From Collinsella sp. An2 (lineage in GTDB: Bacteria; Actinomycetota; Coriobacteriia; Coriobacteriales; Coriobacteriaceae): a DNA stretch of 47,607 nt. Made by a program: the position numbers and the translations under genes. Position 1 is the stretch's first letter. Each line of letters starts with the position of its first letter. Below are positions 3,455 through 19,367 of this stretch, piece by piece. The DNA is taken from contig NZ_NFJW01000016.1 in assembly GCF_002160065.1 (NCBI RefSeq), forward strand, positions 1 to 47,607. Direction: 5' to 3'. The notes under the pieces were generated by a model. It did not search any database, had not been told where the DNA came from, and saw nothing but the letters and a program-made list of their open reading frames with translations.

Positions 3455-4336
3455 ATGATCCGTGTAACCGTTCCGGCCACAAGCGCCAACCTGGGTATTG
3501 GATACGACACCCTGGGCATGGCGGTGTCACTCTATTCGCATTTCACCTTCGACCGCGCCGACACGCTCACCATCACCGGATGCCCCGAGGAGTTCCGCAA
3601 CGCCGACAACATGGTCTACGTTGCATTTGAGCAGGCCCTTGATGCCTGGGGCGTCGAGCCCTTCCCCATTGCGATCGACATCCAGACCGAGATTCCCGTA
3701 GCCCGCGGCCTGGGATCGAGCTCGACCTGCGTGGTCGCCGGCATCATGGGCGCGGCTGCCCTCACCAATCACACCGTGACGCGCGAAGAACTCGTCGCGC
3801 TTGCCACGTCCCTGGAGGGGCACCCCGACAATGTCGCTCCCGCCATCCTGGGCGCAGCCGTATGCTCCTTCACGCCCGAGGGTGAGCTTCCGCGCTGCCT
3901 GCGCTACGACGTGAGCCCCCGTCTGCGCTTCATCACCATCATCCCGCCCTACGAGGTGCATACGAGCGAGGCGCGCAAGGTGGTGCCGCAGGAAGTGCCG
4001 CTCTCCACCGCCGTATGGCAGATGGGCCGCATCGCCGGACTTACACGCGGGCTTGAGACGGGCGACACCGCACTTATCGCAGCCGCAAACGACGACCGTC
4101 TGCAAGAGCCCTATCGCCGCGCCCTCATTCCCGACTACGGCGCCATTCGTGAAACGTGCCTTGCGGGCGGAGCCAAGACGCTGTGGATCTCTGGCTCGGG
4201 CTCGACCCTCATGGCCGTCACCGACGACACCATTGTTGCCAAGTTCCTGCAGGTGCGCCTGCGCGAGAACTTCCCTGCCTGCGAGACGCATATCCTTACG
4301 TGCGACACCGAAGGCGCCCAGATCGAGTACCTGTAG
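3455..4336 (+). CDS. thrB: Homoserine kinase
   Basis: GHMP kinase that phosphorylates homoserine to give the substrate of ThrC. The 293-residue protein has the N-terminal VTVPATSANLGIGYDTLG signature and the GHMP phosphate-binding loop PVARGLGSSS at residues 81-90. A C-terminal Gly-rich segment (ISGSGSTLMA) matches the family end. The start at 3455 has GGAAGGAG upstream, although CTCC just after it could mask the site. It lies downstream of thrC with a 260 bp structured gap, so it may be regulated separately from thrC. Confidence 0.95.
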   Translation: MIRVTVPATSANLGIGYDTLGMAVSLYSHFTFDRADTLTITGCPEEFRNADNMVYVAFEQALDAWGVEPFPIAIDIQTEIPVARGLGSSSTCVVAGIMGAAALTNHTVTREELVALATSLEGHPDNVAPAILGAAVCSFTPEGELPRCLRYDVSPRLRFITIIPPYEVHTSEARKVVPQEVPLSTAVWQMGRIAGLTRGLETGDTALIAAANDDRLQEPYRRALIPDYGAIRETCLAGGAKTLWISGSGSTLMAVTDDTIVAKFLQVRLRENFPACETHILTCDTEGAQIEYL

Positions 4337-4440
4337 AGCCCCGCACTCGCGCTCGCGCGCACAAGAGCAAACCACCGCCATGCGCTGTGGCGGGGCGCTC
4401 TGCTAGGATGAGGGCAGCACACCACCCGAACAGGAGCACC

Positions 4441-6678
4441 ATGGCACCCTCGTCCCCGAAGCGCGAAGCACGTCATCCTCAATCCCACAAGAGCGGCGCG
4501 GCACACGCCCACGCCCAGCGTGCACGTAAAGCCACCCGTCCTAAGCTTGACCCCACCGGTCCCACGGCGCTCGGTTTCACCCGCGCCGACTTCCCGCCTA
4601 CGACGCGCGCCGACATGGAGGCGCGCGGCTGGGACCAGTGCGACTTTGTCTACGTCTCGGGCGACGCATACGTAGACCACCCGAGCTTCGGCGCTGCGAT
4701 CATCGTGCGGCTGCTTGAATCCCATGGCTTTCGCGTGGGAGTTATCGCGCAGCCCGACTGGCGCGACCCGGCAAGCGTCGCCGTTCTTGGCGCGCCGCGC
4801 CTGGCCTTCCTGGTCTCCGGCGGCAACATGGATTCCATGGTCAACCATTACAGCGTAACGAAACATCGCCGCCGCACCGACGCCTACACCCCCGGCGGCA
4901 TCATGGGCGCGCGGCCCGACCACGCCGTCTCGGTCTACGGCAACCTTATCCGACGCACTTTCAAGGAGACGCCCATCATCCTCGGCGGCATCGAGGCGAG
5001 CCTGCGCCGCCTTGCCCACTACGATTACTGGCAGGACCGTCTCAAGCGCTCCATCCTTCTGGACTCCGGCGCAGACCTCATCAGCTACGGCATGGGCGAG
5101 CGCTCCATCGTGGCCATCGCCGAGGCCCTCGACGCCGGGTTGCCCATAGACCAAATCACCTTTATCGACGGAACGGTCTATCGCACCCGCTCGCTCGACG
5201 AGGTCTACGACGCCACCGTGCTTCCCAGCTGGGACGACCTTGAAGCCGACCGCCTCACCTACGCCAAAAGCTTCAATATCCAGTACGAGAACATGGATCC
5301 CATGAGCGGTGGACGCCTGGTGGAGCCGTACCCCCACGACGTCTTCGTGGTGCAAAACCCGCCCTCGAAGCCGCTCTCTCAAGCCGAGTTCGACGAGGCC
5401 TACGACCTCCCGTACACCCGCACCTATCACCCCGACTACGAAGATGCCGGCGGCGTGCCCGCGCTCAAAGAGGTCAAGATGAGCCTCATCTCCAACCGCG
5501 GGTGCTTTGGCGAATGCTCGTTTTGCGCCCTCACGTTCCATCAGGGGCGCATCGTCCAGGCCCGAAGCCACGAGAGCCTGCTGGCCGAGGCGCGCAAAAT
5601 CACCCAGGAGCCCGACTTCAAGGGCTACATCAACGACGTCGGAGGCCCTACGGCAAACTTCCGCCAGCCGGCCTGCAAAAAGCAGCTCGCCCACGGCGCC
5701 TGCGTGCACAAGCGCTGCCTGTGGCCCAAGGTCTGCCGGCAAATGGATGTCTCGCACCGCGACTACGTGCAGCTGCTGCGCGAGCTCCGCGCGCTGCCCG
5801 GCGTGAAAAAGGTCTTCGTGCGCAGCGGCATCCGGTTTGACTACGCCCTGGCAGACCCCGACGACACCTTTATCCGCGAGCTGTGCGCGCACCACGTATC
5901 GGGCCAGCTCAAGGTGGCGCCCGAGCACGTAAGCGACGCCGTGCTTTCGGTGATGGGCAAGCCGAGCCGCGCCGTATACGACCGCTTCGTGGCGAAATAC
6001 CGCGAGGTGAACCGCGAGCTTGGCAAGAAGCAGTACCTGGTTCCCTACCTCATGTCGAGCCATCCGGGCAGCACGCTCAAAGAGGCCGTCGAGCTTGCCG
6101 AATACGTGCGGGATATGGGCTATATGCCCGAACAGGTCCAGGACTTCTACCCTACGCCCTCGACCATGTCGACCTGCATGTACTACACCGGCGTCGACCC
6201 CCGCACCATGAAACCCGTATACGTTCCCAAAACGGCTCACGAAAAAGCGCTCCAGCGCGCACTCATCCAGTACCGCAAGCCGGAAAACTACGACCTGGTA
6301 CGCGAGGCGCTCATCAAGGCGGGACGAGAGGACCTGATCGGCTACGGGCCCAAGTGCCTCATCCGTCCCACGCGGCCGCATGGGGTCAAATCCACAGGCC
6401 GAGCTTCTGCTGGCCGCAACGGCAAGGGGCAGCGTAGCCAGGGAGCGGAGCAACACGACCGCGCAAATGGCTCTGGAGAGACAACAGGCGCGTCCCGTCA
6501 TGCCAAGACAGCAGGTGGCCATGGTCGCGGCAAACACGGTGGCATGGACGGCCGCAGCCGACATCGCACGCAGCCCTCAGGCGGCGCCTTCGGTCGCCCA
6601 CAGCGCGGCTCGAACGCAGCCGGACGCAACCGGGCCGGCCAGGGACGTGAAGCGAACCGAGGCGGTCATCGCGGCTAG
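4441..6678 (+). CDS. ygiQ: YgiQ-family radical SAM protein (UPF0313)
   Basis: Member of the YgiQ/UPF0313 radical SAM family, whose reaction is not established. The 745-residue protein has a B12-binding-like N-terminal region (about 60-300), then the iron-sulfur motif C355-x3-C359-x2-C362 in NRGCFGECSFC and the radical SAM barrel to about residue 600. The last 100 or so residues (from about 645) are low complexity, rich in Gly, Arg, Ser, His and Asn, and likely disordered. ATG 4441 has AGGAG 5-6 nt upstream. It follows thrB after 104 bp with a small GC hairpin between and is not obviously linked to threonine synthesis. Confidence 0.9.
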   Translation: MAPSSPKREARHPQSHKSGAAHAHAQRARKATRPKLDPTGPTALGFTRADFPPTTRADMEARGWDQCDFVYVSGDAYVDHPSFGAAIIVRLLESHGFRVGVIAQPDWRDPASVAVLGAPRLAFLVSGGNMDSMVNHYSVTKHRRRTDAYTPGGIMGARPDHAVSVYGNLIRRTFKETPIILGGIEASLRRLAHYDYWQDRLKRSILLDSGADLISYGMGERSIVAIAEALDAGLPIDQITFIDGTVYRTRSLDEVYDATVLPSWDDLEADRLTYAKSFNIQYENMDPMSGGRLVEPYPHDVFVVQNPPSKPLSQAEFDEAYDLPYTRTYHPDYEDAGGVPALKEVKMSLISNRGCFGECSFCALTFHQGRIVQARSHESLLAEARKITQEPDFKGYINDVGGPTANFRQPACKKQLAHGACVHKRCLWPKVCRQMDVSHRDYVQLLRELRALPGVKKVFVRSGIRFDYALADPDDTFIRELCAHHVSGQLKVAPEHVSDAVLSVMGKPSRAVYDRFVAKYREVNRELGKKQYLVPYLMSSHPGSTLKEAVELAEYVRDMGYMPEQVQDFYPTPSTMSTCMYYTGVDPRTMKPVYVPKTAHEKALQRALIQYRKPENYDLVREALIKAGREDLIGYGPKCLIRPTRPHGVKSTGRASAGRNGKGQRSQGAEQHDRANGSGETTGASRHAKTAGGHGRGKHGGMDGRSRHRTQPSGGAFGRPQRGSNAAGRNRAGQGREANRGGHRG

Positions 6679-15565: not shown

Positions 15566-15690
15566 CGCTCGACGCCTGTGGCCGTAAAGCGCGTCCGACA
15601 CCTATGGTCGCGAGCCCGACACCGGCGGGCCACAAGACGCGTCCGACACCTGTGGCAACAAAGCGAGCCTGACACCGGCGGGCCAGAAGA
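15566..15690. repeat. Five-copy degenerate repeat, about 24-27 bp units
   Basis: Units centred on CGACACCTGTGG or CGACACCGGCGGGCCA recur near 15568, 15591, 15614, 15641 and 15667, with GCGTCC alternating with GCGAGCC. No gene is supported in the 342 bp gap (15438-15779), which also carries the promoter of the ROK kinase. Confidence 0.6.
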
Positions 15691-15731
15691 CTACGCTCAC
15701 GGATTACGCAAGGGCGGTTCTCCCCCACTTC

Positions 15732-15779: not shown

Positions 15780-16673
15780 ATGGATAAACCCCTCATTGGA
15801 GCCTTGGAGGCCGGCGGCACGAAGATGGTGTGCGCCGTTGGCTATGGCGACGGCACCGTCGTAGAGCAGGTCTCTATGCCCACCACCACCCCGGCTGAGA
15901 CCATGGAGCAGGTAGCCGACTGGTTCTCCACAAAGGGCATCGCCGCCCTGGGTGTCGGCGCCTTTGGCCCCACCGCCGTAAACCCCGCCGACCCGCGCTT
16001 TGGCCAGATCCTTGAAACGCCGAAGACGGCGTGGCGCTACTTCGACATGCTCGGCTCGGTACGCGACCGCCTGAACGTTCCTTGCGGCTACGACACCGAT
16101 GTAAACGTCGCGTGCCTGGGCGAGGTCACCTTTGGATGCGCCAAGGGGCTTACCGACGTCGTGTACCTCACCATTGGCACGGGCGTCGGCGCCGGCGTGC
16201 TGTCGGGCGGCAACCTCGTGCACGGCAACATGCACCCCGAAGCCGGTCATATCCTGCTGGTCCGCGACCCGCGCGAAACCCTGCCCGAGGGCGAATCGGG
16301 CTGCCCGTATCACGCCAACTGCCTGGAGGGCCTCATCGCCGGTCCCGGCATCGCTAAACGGTGGGACGGCAAGAAAGCTGGCGAGATGGCCGATAACGCC
16401 GAGGCAATGGATCTGCTCGCGGGTTACCTGGGACAGGCGCTCGCGACGTTCATCCTGTGCTATGCGCCGCAGAAGATCATCATCGGCGGCGGCGTTGCCG
16501 ACCACACGCCCATCGTGTCGCTCGCACGAGAGAAGTGCGCCGCGGCGCTCAACGGTTATATCGTGACGCCGGAGTTCGCCGACCTCGACACCTATATTGT
16601 GAACAACAGCCTTGAGGGCAAGCAGGGCATCATGGGCTGCCTGGAGCTTGGTCGCCGCGCGCTCGAAGCGTAA
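15780..16673 (+). CDS. ROK-family sugar kinase (fructokinase-like)
   Basis: A 297-residue ROK kinase that phosphorylates a free hexose, most like bacterial ROK fructokinases (ScrK/YdhR type). The ATP-binding ALEAGGTK motif is at residues 8-15. The zinc site of the family appears as HPEAGH followed by C-x-Y-H-x-x-C (GCPYHANC) and LEGL. GGGVADH is near the C-terminus. AAAGGAG precedes ATG 15780. It is monocistronic and followed by a GC hairpin (16687-16720). Confidence 0.9.
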   Translation: MDKPLIGALEAGGTKMVCAVGYGDGTVVEQVSMPTTTPAETMEQVADWFSTKGIAALGVGAFGPTAVNPADPRFGQILETPKTAWRYFDMLGSVRDRLNVPCGYDTDVNVACLGEVTFGCAKGLTDVVYLTIGTGVGAGVLSGGNLVHGNMHPEAGHILLVRDPRETLPEGESGCPYHANCLEGLIAGPGIAKRWDGKKAGEMADNAEAMDLLAGYLGQALATFILCYAPQKIIIGGGVADHTPIVSLAREKCAAALNGYIVTPEFADLDTYIVNNSLEGKQGIMGCLELGRRALEA

Positions 16674-16866: not shown

Positions 16867-16938
16867 CATCTTCGGGCAAGATTGTGCCTTTAAGGCTCTG
16901 ATATTCAGCTGGTAACGGCACATTCTTGCCCAAGAATG
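16867..16938. repeat. Palindromic repeat, downstream copy
   Basis: Arms 16867-16888 and 16917-16938 are inverted repeats (about 18 of 22 positions pair) around a 28 nt loop. The whole unit is a same-orientation relative of 18091-18164; both share AAGATTGT in the left arm and GGTAACGGCAC/GATAACGGCAC plus ATTCTTGCC in the right. The pair brackets the gene 17015-18094. Confidence 0.7.
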
Positions 16939-17014
16939 CATATACGACCCCAAGCAAAGTCCAAACGGATTCGAATGAGGCCAGATGGGCCAAGCGGTTC
17001 ACCAAACGGCGAGC

Positions 17015-18094
17015 TCAAGAGCCCGACGACGCAATTCGCGGAACGCCATACGCATCAAGAAGGCGCGCGAGTGCGCCGGGCGTCATCACCGTACGATAAT
17101 CAAAACGAATCACCGCGTCGCACACTGCCGTCAGACGAGATTCACGCTGACGCTCGTGCATCATGCGCCCCACGGCATCGCCGTGCTCTCCCGCAAAGCG
17201 CGTGTACTTGTCCTTGCCGTCGAACTCCCACACCAACTTTGTCCCGTCATCCAAAAGCCACGCTCCATCGACATAGAATGTTTGCCATGGCTCCAGCACA
17301 TCGGGAAACGCCACTTGGAGGTCGGGCACGACGAACCCTTCCTGAATCATGACGCCGCGCGCGATAGATTCTCCTCCACTTTGGCTGCGTGCATCTACAT
17401 ACGACGCCACACGAAGCGCACCTCTGACGCCGCGCTTACGACCACCGAATCGCTTAACGAGCTGCATGAGCTCGTCGCGCGATATGCCAAGAAGGCGCAA
17501 CGCTGCATCCGCGATGGCCAGCGCCTGGGGAAACGGCGCCGTGCAGAGGCAGTCGACCACGGTCTGTTCGGGCGATGTCACATGGATTCCGTGCACCGTA
17601 CCGCGCGCAAAAGTTGGAATGCCCGGCGTGGCACGCACGCCGCAGCGCACGAATCGGCCCGCCTTTCCCGTGTGAGAGCGAGGCGAAACCGCAAGATACA
17701 CGTCTTCCAGCAGCTCGAGCGATACGGGCAGTCCAAAAACGCATGCCGCAGAGAACGAGGCGAAGATCAGGTGATCGTCATGGCGCGCGAGCGATTTGAT
17801 GATGACGAACGGACGCTCCCATCGCTCAAGATTCGCCCAGTACGCGCTACGCCCAAACAGCTGCGGAAACGGCTCTACCAGCTCACCTCGGCCCACGCGC
17901 CGGCGAAACGCACGAATCTCTTCTCGCGATGGACGGAAAAGCGCGCCGTCCTTCTCGGCCTGAGCAATCTGGCAAGCGATTCGCTCTGAAACCTCTGATC
18001 GCGTGGTCCTCACCCCCTTCTGGGTGAATGCGCTCCGTATACGCCGGAGCACAAGAGGCAAGGGATATGTACGAAGATTCCGCGCCTCTTTCAT
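17015..18094 (-). CDS. Solitary AbiEi/DUF559-like protein (HTH plus PD-(D/E)XK-like domain)
   Basis: A 359-residue protein resembling actinobacterial proteins annotated as AbiEi-family antitoxin or DUF559 endonuclease-like. The middle (about 75-185) holds AbiEi-like helices. The C-terminal half has the SGGES motif (239-243), D276 (YVDGAW) and WEFDGKDKY (289-297, E290, D292, K294), a layout of a PD-(D/E)XK/Vsr-type fold. No toxin partner (AbiEii) is adjacent. The ATG at 18094 lies in the arm of a palindrome with no ribosome site, and a TACAAT box at 18106-18111 would make the mRNA nearly leaderless. Function is unknown. Palindromes at 18091-18164 and 16867-16938 flank it. Confidence 0.7.
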   Translation of the reverse strand: MKEARNLRTYPLPLVLRRIRSAFTQKGVRTTRSEVSERIACQIAQAEKDGALFRPSREEIRAFRRRVGRGELVEPFPQLFGRSAYWANLERWERPFVIIKSLARHDDHLIFASFSAACVFGLPVSLELLEDVYLAVSPRSHTGKAGRFVRCGVRATPGIPTFARGTVHGIHVTSPEQTVVDCLCTAPFPQALAIADAALRLLGISRDELMQLVKRFGGRKRGVRGALRVASYVDARSQSGGESIARGVMIQEGFVVPDLQVAFPDVLEPWQTFYVDGAWLLDDGTKLVWEFDGKDKYTRFAGEHGDAVGRMMHERQRESRLTAVCDAVIRFDYRTVMTPGALARLLDAYGVPRIASSGS

Positions 18095-18164
18095 TCTTAG
18101 GCAAGATTGTACCGATATAAAGCATTATTGAAGCTGATAACGGCACATTCTTGCCTAAGAATGA
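18091..18164. repeat. Palindromic repeat, upstream copy, overlapping the gene start
   Basis: Arms 18091-18114 and 18141-18164 pair at 22 of 24 positions around a 26 nt AT-rich loop. The left arm includes the ATG (18092-18094) and the candidate -10 box of the minus-strand gene 17015-18094, so a protein bound here would block its own transcription. The other end approaches the pflA stop (18184). Confidence 0.75.
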
Positions 18165-18183: not shown

Positions 18184-18984
18184 CTATCCCTCGGCGCGTC
18201 CTTTCTTCATGCCGCGCAGCACCGCCGTACGCAGCTCGGGCATACGCGCCTTATCCATAGCCGGAACGCCTTCCAGAGGGTATGGAATGCCCAGCTGTTC
18301 GTACTTCACGACACCCATGGTGTGATACGGCAGCATCTCAAGTCCAACCACGTTATGCCACGGCGCAATGAGGCGGCCGAGCTGCTCGCACTCCTCCACC
18401 GTATCGGTATATCCCGGCACAACCACATGACGAATGACGACCTTGATGCCCCGCCGGGCGAGCTCGTCACCAAACGCGAGAATACGCGCAGGGTCCCGTC
18501 CGGTAAGTTTTCGATGTCCCTCCGGGTCGGCGTGCTTGATATCCAGCAGCACCAGATCCGTCGCTTCAAGCAGCCGCGCAAACCGCTCGGGATGGTCAGG
18601 CGAAAAGGCGTAGCCACAGGAATCCAAGCAGGTATGCACTCGGCCATGAGGCGCCGCATGCATCTGCTCGAACAGGTCGGCGACAAACTCTGGCTGCAGC
18701 AGCGGCTCGCCGCCCGTTACCGTAATGCCGCCGTTGCGATAGAACTGCCGGTTGTTCTCGAACGCCGCAACGATTTGCTCAACCGACACCGGTGTCCCCA
18801 CATTGACCGGCCAGGTATCGGGGTTGTGACAGTAGGCACACCGCATGGGACACCCCTGCACAAATACAACGAATCGCATGCCCGGGCCGTCCACCGTGCC
18901 CATGGTTTCAATGGAGTGGATATTCCCGATGGCAAAACGCGATGAGGCGTCGCCTCCAAACGACTCGAGCTCCATCTTTGCCAT
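18184..18984 (-). CDS. pflA: Pyruvate formate-lyase activating enzyme
   Basis: Radical SAM enzyme that installs the glycyl radical on PFL. The 266-residue protein has C45-x3-C49-x2-C52 in QGCPMRCAYCHNP and the VTGGEPLLQPEF segment. GAGGAGG lies 8 nt before ATG 18984, which fits the family start. It is on the same strand as pflB and the glycyl-radical gene but separated from them by panE on the opposite strand, so it has its own promoter. Its likely target is the separate glycyl-radical polypeptide at 20623-20874. Confidence 0.93.
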   Translation of the reverse strand: MAKMELESFGGDASSRFAIGNIHSIETMGTVDGPGMRFVVFVQGCPMRCAYCHNPDTWPVNVGTPVSVEQIVAAFENNRQFYRNGGITVTGGEPLLQPEFVADLFEQMHAAPHGRVHTCLDSCGYAFSPDHPERFARLLEATDLVLLDIKHADPEGHRKLTGRDPARILAFGDELARRGIKVVIRHVVVPGYTDTVEECEQLGRLIAPWHNVVGLEMLPYHTMGVVKYEQLGIPYPLEGVPAMDKARMPELRTAVLRGMKKGRAEG

Positions 18985-19367
18985 CGTGGGAACCTCCTCT
19001 ATCCTTGTTGCCACAGCGTCGAAAACGCGGTGCGTGAGTCCTTCGGCCCGCCGGGCGGTCGACGCAAGAGACATCAATCCGCCTGCCGATCAACGCAAAA
19101 GCCATCAGGCTCGCCGCGACGCGCGGTGCGCGAGTCATCAGGCCTGCCGCGCCATACGATGCGCGAACCGTCTGGTCCGCCGCGCCTCACGTCGCCGTAG
19201 CGATTGTTTATCGCCATTGTAAAAGAAACCTAATGCGCGCGCCTTCAGGGACAAGGCGCTCTACCCTTGCGTCGCATCGTACAATGAACCAGCCAATCGT
19301 TAGCCGTACGCCTACTGCTTCGACAGGCGTCGAAGACGCCCGGGCGTTTGAACTCAAAGGGGTATCT
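18985..19367. other. 383 bp divergent gap (pflA / panE)
   Basis: No gene is supported. The central part is a degenerate repeat tract (19035-19190). The panE-proximal part has a possible -10 box TACAAT at 19280-19285 without a good -35. Confidence 0.5.
19035..19190. repeat. Degenerate repeats, about 30-36 bp units
   Basis: Units of the type GTGCGCGAGTCATCAGGCC followed by GCCGCG recur four to five times with substitutions (for example near 19030, 19070, 19095, 19125 and 19160). They lie entirely between pflA and panE. Confidence 0.5.

Follow-up and report, generated by a model that had tools for sequence, protein, structure and literature searches.

We propose, with about even confidence, that a solitary AbiEi-related gene and the two palindromes on either side of it form one unit, a small REPtron-like element that is built on a protein unrelated to RAYTs and that would repress itself and cut at its palindromes. 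The best-supported part of this reading, judged from sequence comparisons, is that the protein would bind a private pair of half-sites on both sides of its own gene; it probably also represses itself at the upstream copy.

The window gene and its two palindromes

The window is a whole contig of 47.6 kb from a genome of 2.54 Mb. Two palindromes in the same orientation, one upstream of the gene at 18091-18164 and one downstream at 16867-16938, enclose a single ORF (17015-18094, minus strand), as the initial annotation had described. The upstream palindrome consists of two inverted half-sites and overlaps the presumed promoter; its 28-nt arms are 89% complementary, and it folds as RNA with -42.7 kcal/mol (z -11.2), the downstream palindrome having a fold z of -6.1. 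The two are direct copies spaced 1225 bp apart, with 94% identity across 32 bp in one half and 77% across 31 bp in the other, and they rank best and fifth-best in a palindrome scan of the entire window. The inner element of the upstream copy is 52 bp long, from CAAGAATGTG through ACAATCTTG, and that of the downstream copy is likewise 52 bp. Using pattern and BLAST searches, on which all genome-wide palindrome counts are based, we found the element in the 2.54 Mb genome as this pair only, with no further copy. Copies of the palindrome spread over the genome apart from such genes, a possibility that had been raised earlier, were thus absent, and we rejected the idea that the window palindrome is a dispersed repeat of its own genome.

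As previously claimed, the upstream copy contains a -10-like box, TACAAT (18106-18111, minus strand), whereas CACAAT, with T changed to C, stands at the corresponding position of the downstream copy (16881-16886, minus strand). Each form is found in 3/3 of the respective copies in the three species compared, as expected if only the upstream copy holds a promoter, and this confinement of the conserved TACAAT makes autoregulation of the window gene plausible. Counted from the ATG inside the palindrome (18092-18094), the gene encodes 359 aa. The initial annotation had placed the gene's start at this ATG, which is probably wrong. Enorma phocaeensis does not keep it and has ATATAAC at that place, and most homologues start about 27 residues downstream; on these grounds the true start may be an in-frame GTG at codon 28 of the long ORF (18011-18013, minus strand), close to the homologue starts.

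The protein carries residues that are invariant in 36/36 aligned members, namely G241-E242-S243, D276, E290-x-D-G-x-x-K296, E314, R317, and R330. Read by motif, these form a PD-(D/E)XK-like pattern in the C-terminal part and mark a putative nuclease, with E290-x-D-G-x-x-K296 (17207-17227, minus strand) as the presumed active site together with E242 and D276; no solved structure of a relative was found. AbiEi profiles (PADLOC models, from a defence library) match up to 19/36 family members, at best with 1.5e-10, and the window protein only with an E-value of 0.004 over residues 93-216, while DUF559 is matched weakly by 1/36 members. By profile comparison, the earlier description 'AbiEi/DUF559-like' therefore amounts to a remote relation. 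A transposase domain is absent from the window protein and from all 36 members, and no transposase gene adjoins the window gene.

Relatives of the window protein occur in 62/67 genomes of its family, with four paralogues in its own genome, and the named records nearest to the window gene are Enorma phocaeensis and Enorma massiliensis. The AbiEi-like family is patchy across species. The gene has dN/dS values of ~0.10 and ~0.07 (dS being close to saturation for the latter) and is under strong purifying selection. We found no relatives in phages or viral contigs. The single plasmid match, Collinsella aerofaciens NZ_OY725717.1 (899,693 bp), was deposited as 'plasmid 6' and is probably a piece of chromosome, with glutamate synthase genes on it. 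On these two points we rejected a phage or plasmid origin.

Private palindrome pairs and the form of the sites

We compared 700 bp on each side of the gene at 102 loci, comprising 100 homologous loci, the window, and E. phocaeensis. A matched flanking pair scoring above 35 bits is present at 60 of the 102, in contrast to 0 of 192 controls with the same geometry shifted by 2.7 kb, which excludes chance as the source of the flanking pair. With 900 bp flanks, 61 of the 102 loci are paired (56 direct and 5 inverted, median span 1501 bp), and the remaining 41 have no pair within 900 bp of the gene. In 54 of the 61 pairs, the palindromic character of each copy exceeds that of 95% of background. The paired loci represent about 29 protein groups (55% identity), which include related species, so the 61 loci are not independent. 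As a rule, the repeat is private to its protein group, being common to orthologues and not to paralogues. A distance of 200-500 nt separates the gene from its upstream copy at many loci. Two loci at the same chromosomal place (L146 in G002, L175 in G000) encode related proteins and carry different palindrome pairs, one inverted and one direct, indicating that sites can change fast.

To look more widely, we searched 396 genomes of the phylum with a profile and applied the same flank test. Two more families of the order have matched pairs (L216, L217, L219; L221, L224, L226, L228), as do distant families of the phylum (L208, L210, L212, L214, L232), so that the repeats proposed to accompany homologues in other genomes are present there. 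At some loci (L121, L127, L138, L141, L142, L145, L154, L155, L159, L161), direct half-site repeats (ACGAGCGTGGATTTTCGGAC) stand upstream of the gene beside the palindrome, indicating that the sites are not only palindromic.

The palindromes have fixed lengths. Elements of group 1 are exactly 55 bp in 148 of 150 distinct copies and those of group 4 are 46 bp in 53/53, in searches that admitted several lengths; group-3 elements are 62 bp in 15/15, and the window-type inner element is 52 bp in 6/6 copies from three species, though its middle is free to vary. The arms hardly vary, and a change at one arm position is not accompanied by a change at its partner: across 148 group-1, 53 group-4, and 15 group-3 elements, paired counts are approximately at or below expectation, with the exception of one central group-4 pair. 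An A-A mismatch in the stem of the window element is shared by 6/6 copies. Covariation should be seen in a hairpin under selection, whereas two half-sites bound by protein at a set helical distance can do without it. The fixed length and the lack of covariation therefore favour double-stranded half-sites, bound by protein in pairs, over hairpins. The palindrome has no Rfam match, and together with the fixed length and absent covariation this led us to reject the idea that a hairpin in RNA or single-stranded DNA is what chiefly constrains the sequence. The middle of the group-1 element is 95-98% A/T at positions 27-29 between G/C blocks at 22-24 and 32-34, with A/T returning near 18 and 38, at a spacing of about one helical turn, a composition that would be expected of sharply bent DNA.

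Empty sites, losses and dispersed palindromes

In the window lineage, the cassette sits between two convergent genes that define the insertion site, pflA (pyruvate formate-lyase activating enzyme, 18184-18987, minus strand) and a ROK-family gene (15780-16673, plus strand). E. phocaeensis and E. massiliensis have both gene and palindromes at this site. Empty sites, the subject of one of the checks outlined in advance, do exist: in G056, G057, G060, and G064, pflA and the ROK gene are adjacent, with gaps of 146-338 bp and neither gene nor palindrome between them. At the corresponding place between pflA and ROK, G065 (L078, G065:C6:79000-88000) carries a gene of 46% identity that points the other way and has a palindrome pair of clearly different sequence. 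This means either that the site received a unit twice or that the unit turned round and exchanged its palindromes. The window also contains, at 15590-15691 upstream of the ROK gene, a 27/53 bp unit (CGACACCGGCGGGCC...) repeated in tandem, with two to three copies, which is unrelated to the palindromes.

The group-3 cassette offers cleaner evidence. Its site is empty in the genomes of six species (G008, G010, G013, G017, G026, G032), and homology of the filled locus, L142, to these sites ends at 3514-3540 and restarts at 5095-5104 (junctions placed with BLAST anchors), just outside the repeats and gene, which lie within ~3560-5080. The group-1 gene, in turn, has been lost in G007, G010, and G011, where exactly one palindrome is kept at the locus, and a shortened gene remains at the G032 locus. 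Comparison of these loci indicates that palindrome, gene, and palindrome are gained or lost as one block. The one-palindrome remnant can be explained by plain homologous deletion between direct repeats, for which no special enzyme is needed.

The initial annotation had also considered a mobile cassette. The joint gain and loss of gene and repeats, and the repeats that accompany homologues, speak for it; against it, no near-identical cassette is found at two sites. Among the 102 loci, no pair at different sites exceeds 62% protein identity, proteins more than 55% identical share the same locus with two exceptions (56% and 61%), and we saw no recent or active transposition. The window protein is 86% identical to that of Enorma massiliensis, compared with 78% for the proteins of its neighbours, and the nucleotide identity is 78% for the gene versus 70-77% for the neighbours. 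These nucleotide identities and the dN/dS values fit vertical descent under selection, and we rejected the idea that the window cassette moved recently between genera by horizontal transfer; by these comparisons, the cassette is inherited together with its neighbours.

Collinsella-type genomes (the genus of G008-G051) contain palindromes away from the gene. The group-1 palindrome has 18-47 copies in each of 24 genomes, where it often stands in tandem clusters that repeat every 80 bp, and 0-1 in the other 21 of the genus; reversed control patterns gave 0 matches. The same clade also has dispersed palindromes of group 3 (1-5 copies) and group 4 (1-13 per strand). A match to the group-1 gene is present in 20 of the 24 genomes with dispersal; it is absent from G007, G010, and G011, in which the dispersed palindromes persist, and G032 has a fragment. 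Because all dispersed families (groups 1, 3, and 4) fall in one clade, the link between gene and dispersal amounts to few independent events. In G008, two identical group-3 palindromes enclose a Fic/DOC-family gene (L280 3171-4710; L281, L282), and G010 has one group-3 palindrome at the place where this Fic gene is absent (L283 2725-2815).

Group-1 clusters in G008 are flanked by a second palindrome that is also repeated, AAACCACCACAAAGGTGCCTGTCCCCTTTGTGGTGGTTT, which occurs by itself at the corresponding sites of G007 (L246 1460-1740, L247 1400-1800, L269 6733-6768, L270 11761-11800). The 36-40 bp overlap between G008 and G007 at these clusters is this second palindrome family, and a target-site duplication was rejected for that reason.

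We suggest the following course of events for the proposed element. The AbiEi-like part would read a locus-specific half-site on double-stranded DNA, and a dimer would join two inverted half-sites across a fixed, bendable spacer. Binding at the upstream copy would repress the gene's own promoter, and the C-terminal PD-(D/E)XK-like part would nick or cut at or beside the bound palindromes. Repair between repeats could then duplicate, spread, or delete palindromes and the intervening DNA, including the protein's own gene, and the same repair would act on the Fic gene in Collinsella-type genomes. The nuclease-like motif suggests the putative cutting and recombination, as do the empty sites, the dispersed arrays, and the single palindromes left behind after loss. 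Palindrome spread needs an enzyme, for which the cognate protein is the best candidate and not the sole one. In the window lineage, the unit would now be stable and single, like a domesticated element.

Several of these observations would also be expected of a chromosomal gene that merely regulates itself, in which the palindromes are operators of an AbiEi-type repressor, the downstream one serving DNA looping, and the nuclease-like domain acts elsewhere, for instance on invading DNA, with no mobility involved. The AbiEi relation, the TACAAT conserved in upstream and not in downstream copies, the fixed spacing without covariation that suits operator half-sites, and the long residence under purifying selection all agree with it. 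We nevertheless consider it rather unlikely, since it does not account for dispersed palindromes and arrays at places other than the gene, for repeats that come and go with the gene, or for the palindromes around the Fic gene, and at many loci the upstream copy stands 200-500 nt off the gene. It is improbable that the protein is a restriction-like or abortive-infection defence nuclease, bound and restrained by its flanking palindromes until phage DNA or damage frees it. The origin of the AbiEi profiles in a defence library, the nuclease-like motif, and the patchy presence across species are in line with this, but no methylase, toxin, or other defence gene adjoins the window gene, whose neighbours are pflA and the ROK-family gene, phages and viral contigs yielded no relative, and this reading predicts neither dispersal nor palindromes that come and go with the gene. 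Very improbable, finally, is that another repeat-spreading enzyme (e.g., of RAYT type) owns the palindromes and that this family, like the Fic gene between group-3 palindromes, is incidental cargo among single genes trapped between copies; the second palindrome family in the same Collinsella-type sites would suit this, but passive trapping would not couple palindrome sequence to one protein family, as seen in about 29 protein groups with private palindromes common to orthologues, and the neighbouring-gene controls gave 0/192.

Relation to known systems and meaning

In a REPtron, a RAYT (TnpA-REP) gene is flanked by REPs, coevolving palindromes that are also scattered in regularly spaced clusters (PMC2817692, PMC8266576). 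The proposed element resembles it in having a single gene between two palindromes matched to the protein, in its domesticated behaviour, and in palindromes that are scattered and regularly clustered, here for groups 1, 3, and 4 of Collinsella-type genomes and not for the window palindrome. In contrast, it has a PD-(D/E)XK-like motif and an AbiEi relation instead of an HUH/Y1 transposase (Pfam Transposase_17). The flanks of a REPtron are inverted, whereas the window copies are direct, as are those at 56 of 61 loci against 5 inverted. Both window copies lack the GTAG/GTGG head, and the elements, at ~46-100 bp, have long middles of fixed length and arms that appear to be double-stranded half-sites rather than a conserved hairpin. 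The cassette thus works like a REPtron but fails REPtron membership.

AbiEi antitoxins are DNA-binding autorepressors that act at inverted repeats upstream of their operon. The window protein shares with the Type IV toxin-antitoxin system AbiEi/AbiEii an AbiEi-related protein, as recognized by the PADLOC models. However, no AbiEii nucleotidyltransferase toxin gene adjoins it between pflA and the ROK-family gene, and the window unit is therefore not an AbiE toxin-antitoxin pair. It further differs from AbiE in the extra C-terminal nuclease-like part, the matching downstream palindrome, and the dispersal of palindromes in some genomes.

Rpn recombination-promoting nucleases are of the PD-(D/E)XK type. 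These YhgA-like proteins promote recombination or act in defence, and their natural role is unclear (PMC5350276, PMC10327210). The window protein is likewise a putative PD-(D/E)XK-type nuclease, with a possible part in recombination or defence, but belongs to a different family. To our knowledge, private flanking palindrome pairs are not a feature of Rpn. Integron gene cassettes are also single genes beside long imperfect palindromes (attC), and loss between repeats leaves one site. The attC sites are selected for single-strand folding. Unlike integron cassettes, the present units lack an integrase, have a different palindrome in each gene group, and show fixed length and no covariation in these palindromes.

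We found no published description of AbiEi/DUF559 genes with palindromes, or of Collinsella palindromic repeats, in a literature search that covered a minority of subscription papers. The private palindrome of each relative and the genome-wide dispersal in Collinsella-type genomes were not foreseeable from the window alone, and the comparisons suggest that actinobacteria harbour small elements, mobile now or in the past, of a kind not recognised before. More tentatively, and with somewhat less than even confidence, we envisage a class of palindrome-spreading elements in these bacteria in which a sequence-specific AbiEi-PD-(D/E)XK nuclease, not an HUH transposase, would read half-site pairs private to it on double-stranded DNA, repress itself, cut, and copy, disperse, or delete palindromes and the genes between them.

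Dispersed REP-type palindromes have so far been tied mainly to one enzyme family, the RAYTs. If the proposal is true, a second, unrelated family would combine the gene-between-palindromes design with dispersal, and this lifestyle would have arisen more than once. The palindrome arrays of Collinsella-type genomes would be accounted for, and about 30 natural protein/site pairs would be at hand to read the DNA-recognition code of AbiEi-like domains. The numerous solitary AbiEi/DUF559-like genes of gut actinobacteria would also receive a suggested function, and many actinobacterial genes now called 'hypothetical' or 'AbiEi antitoxin' would be such elements.
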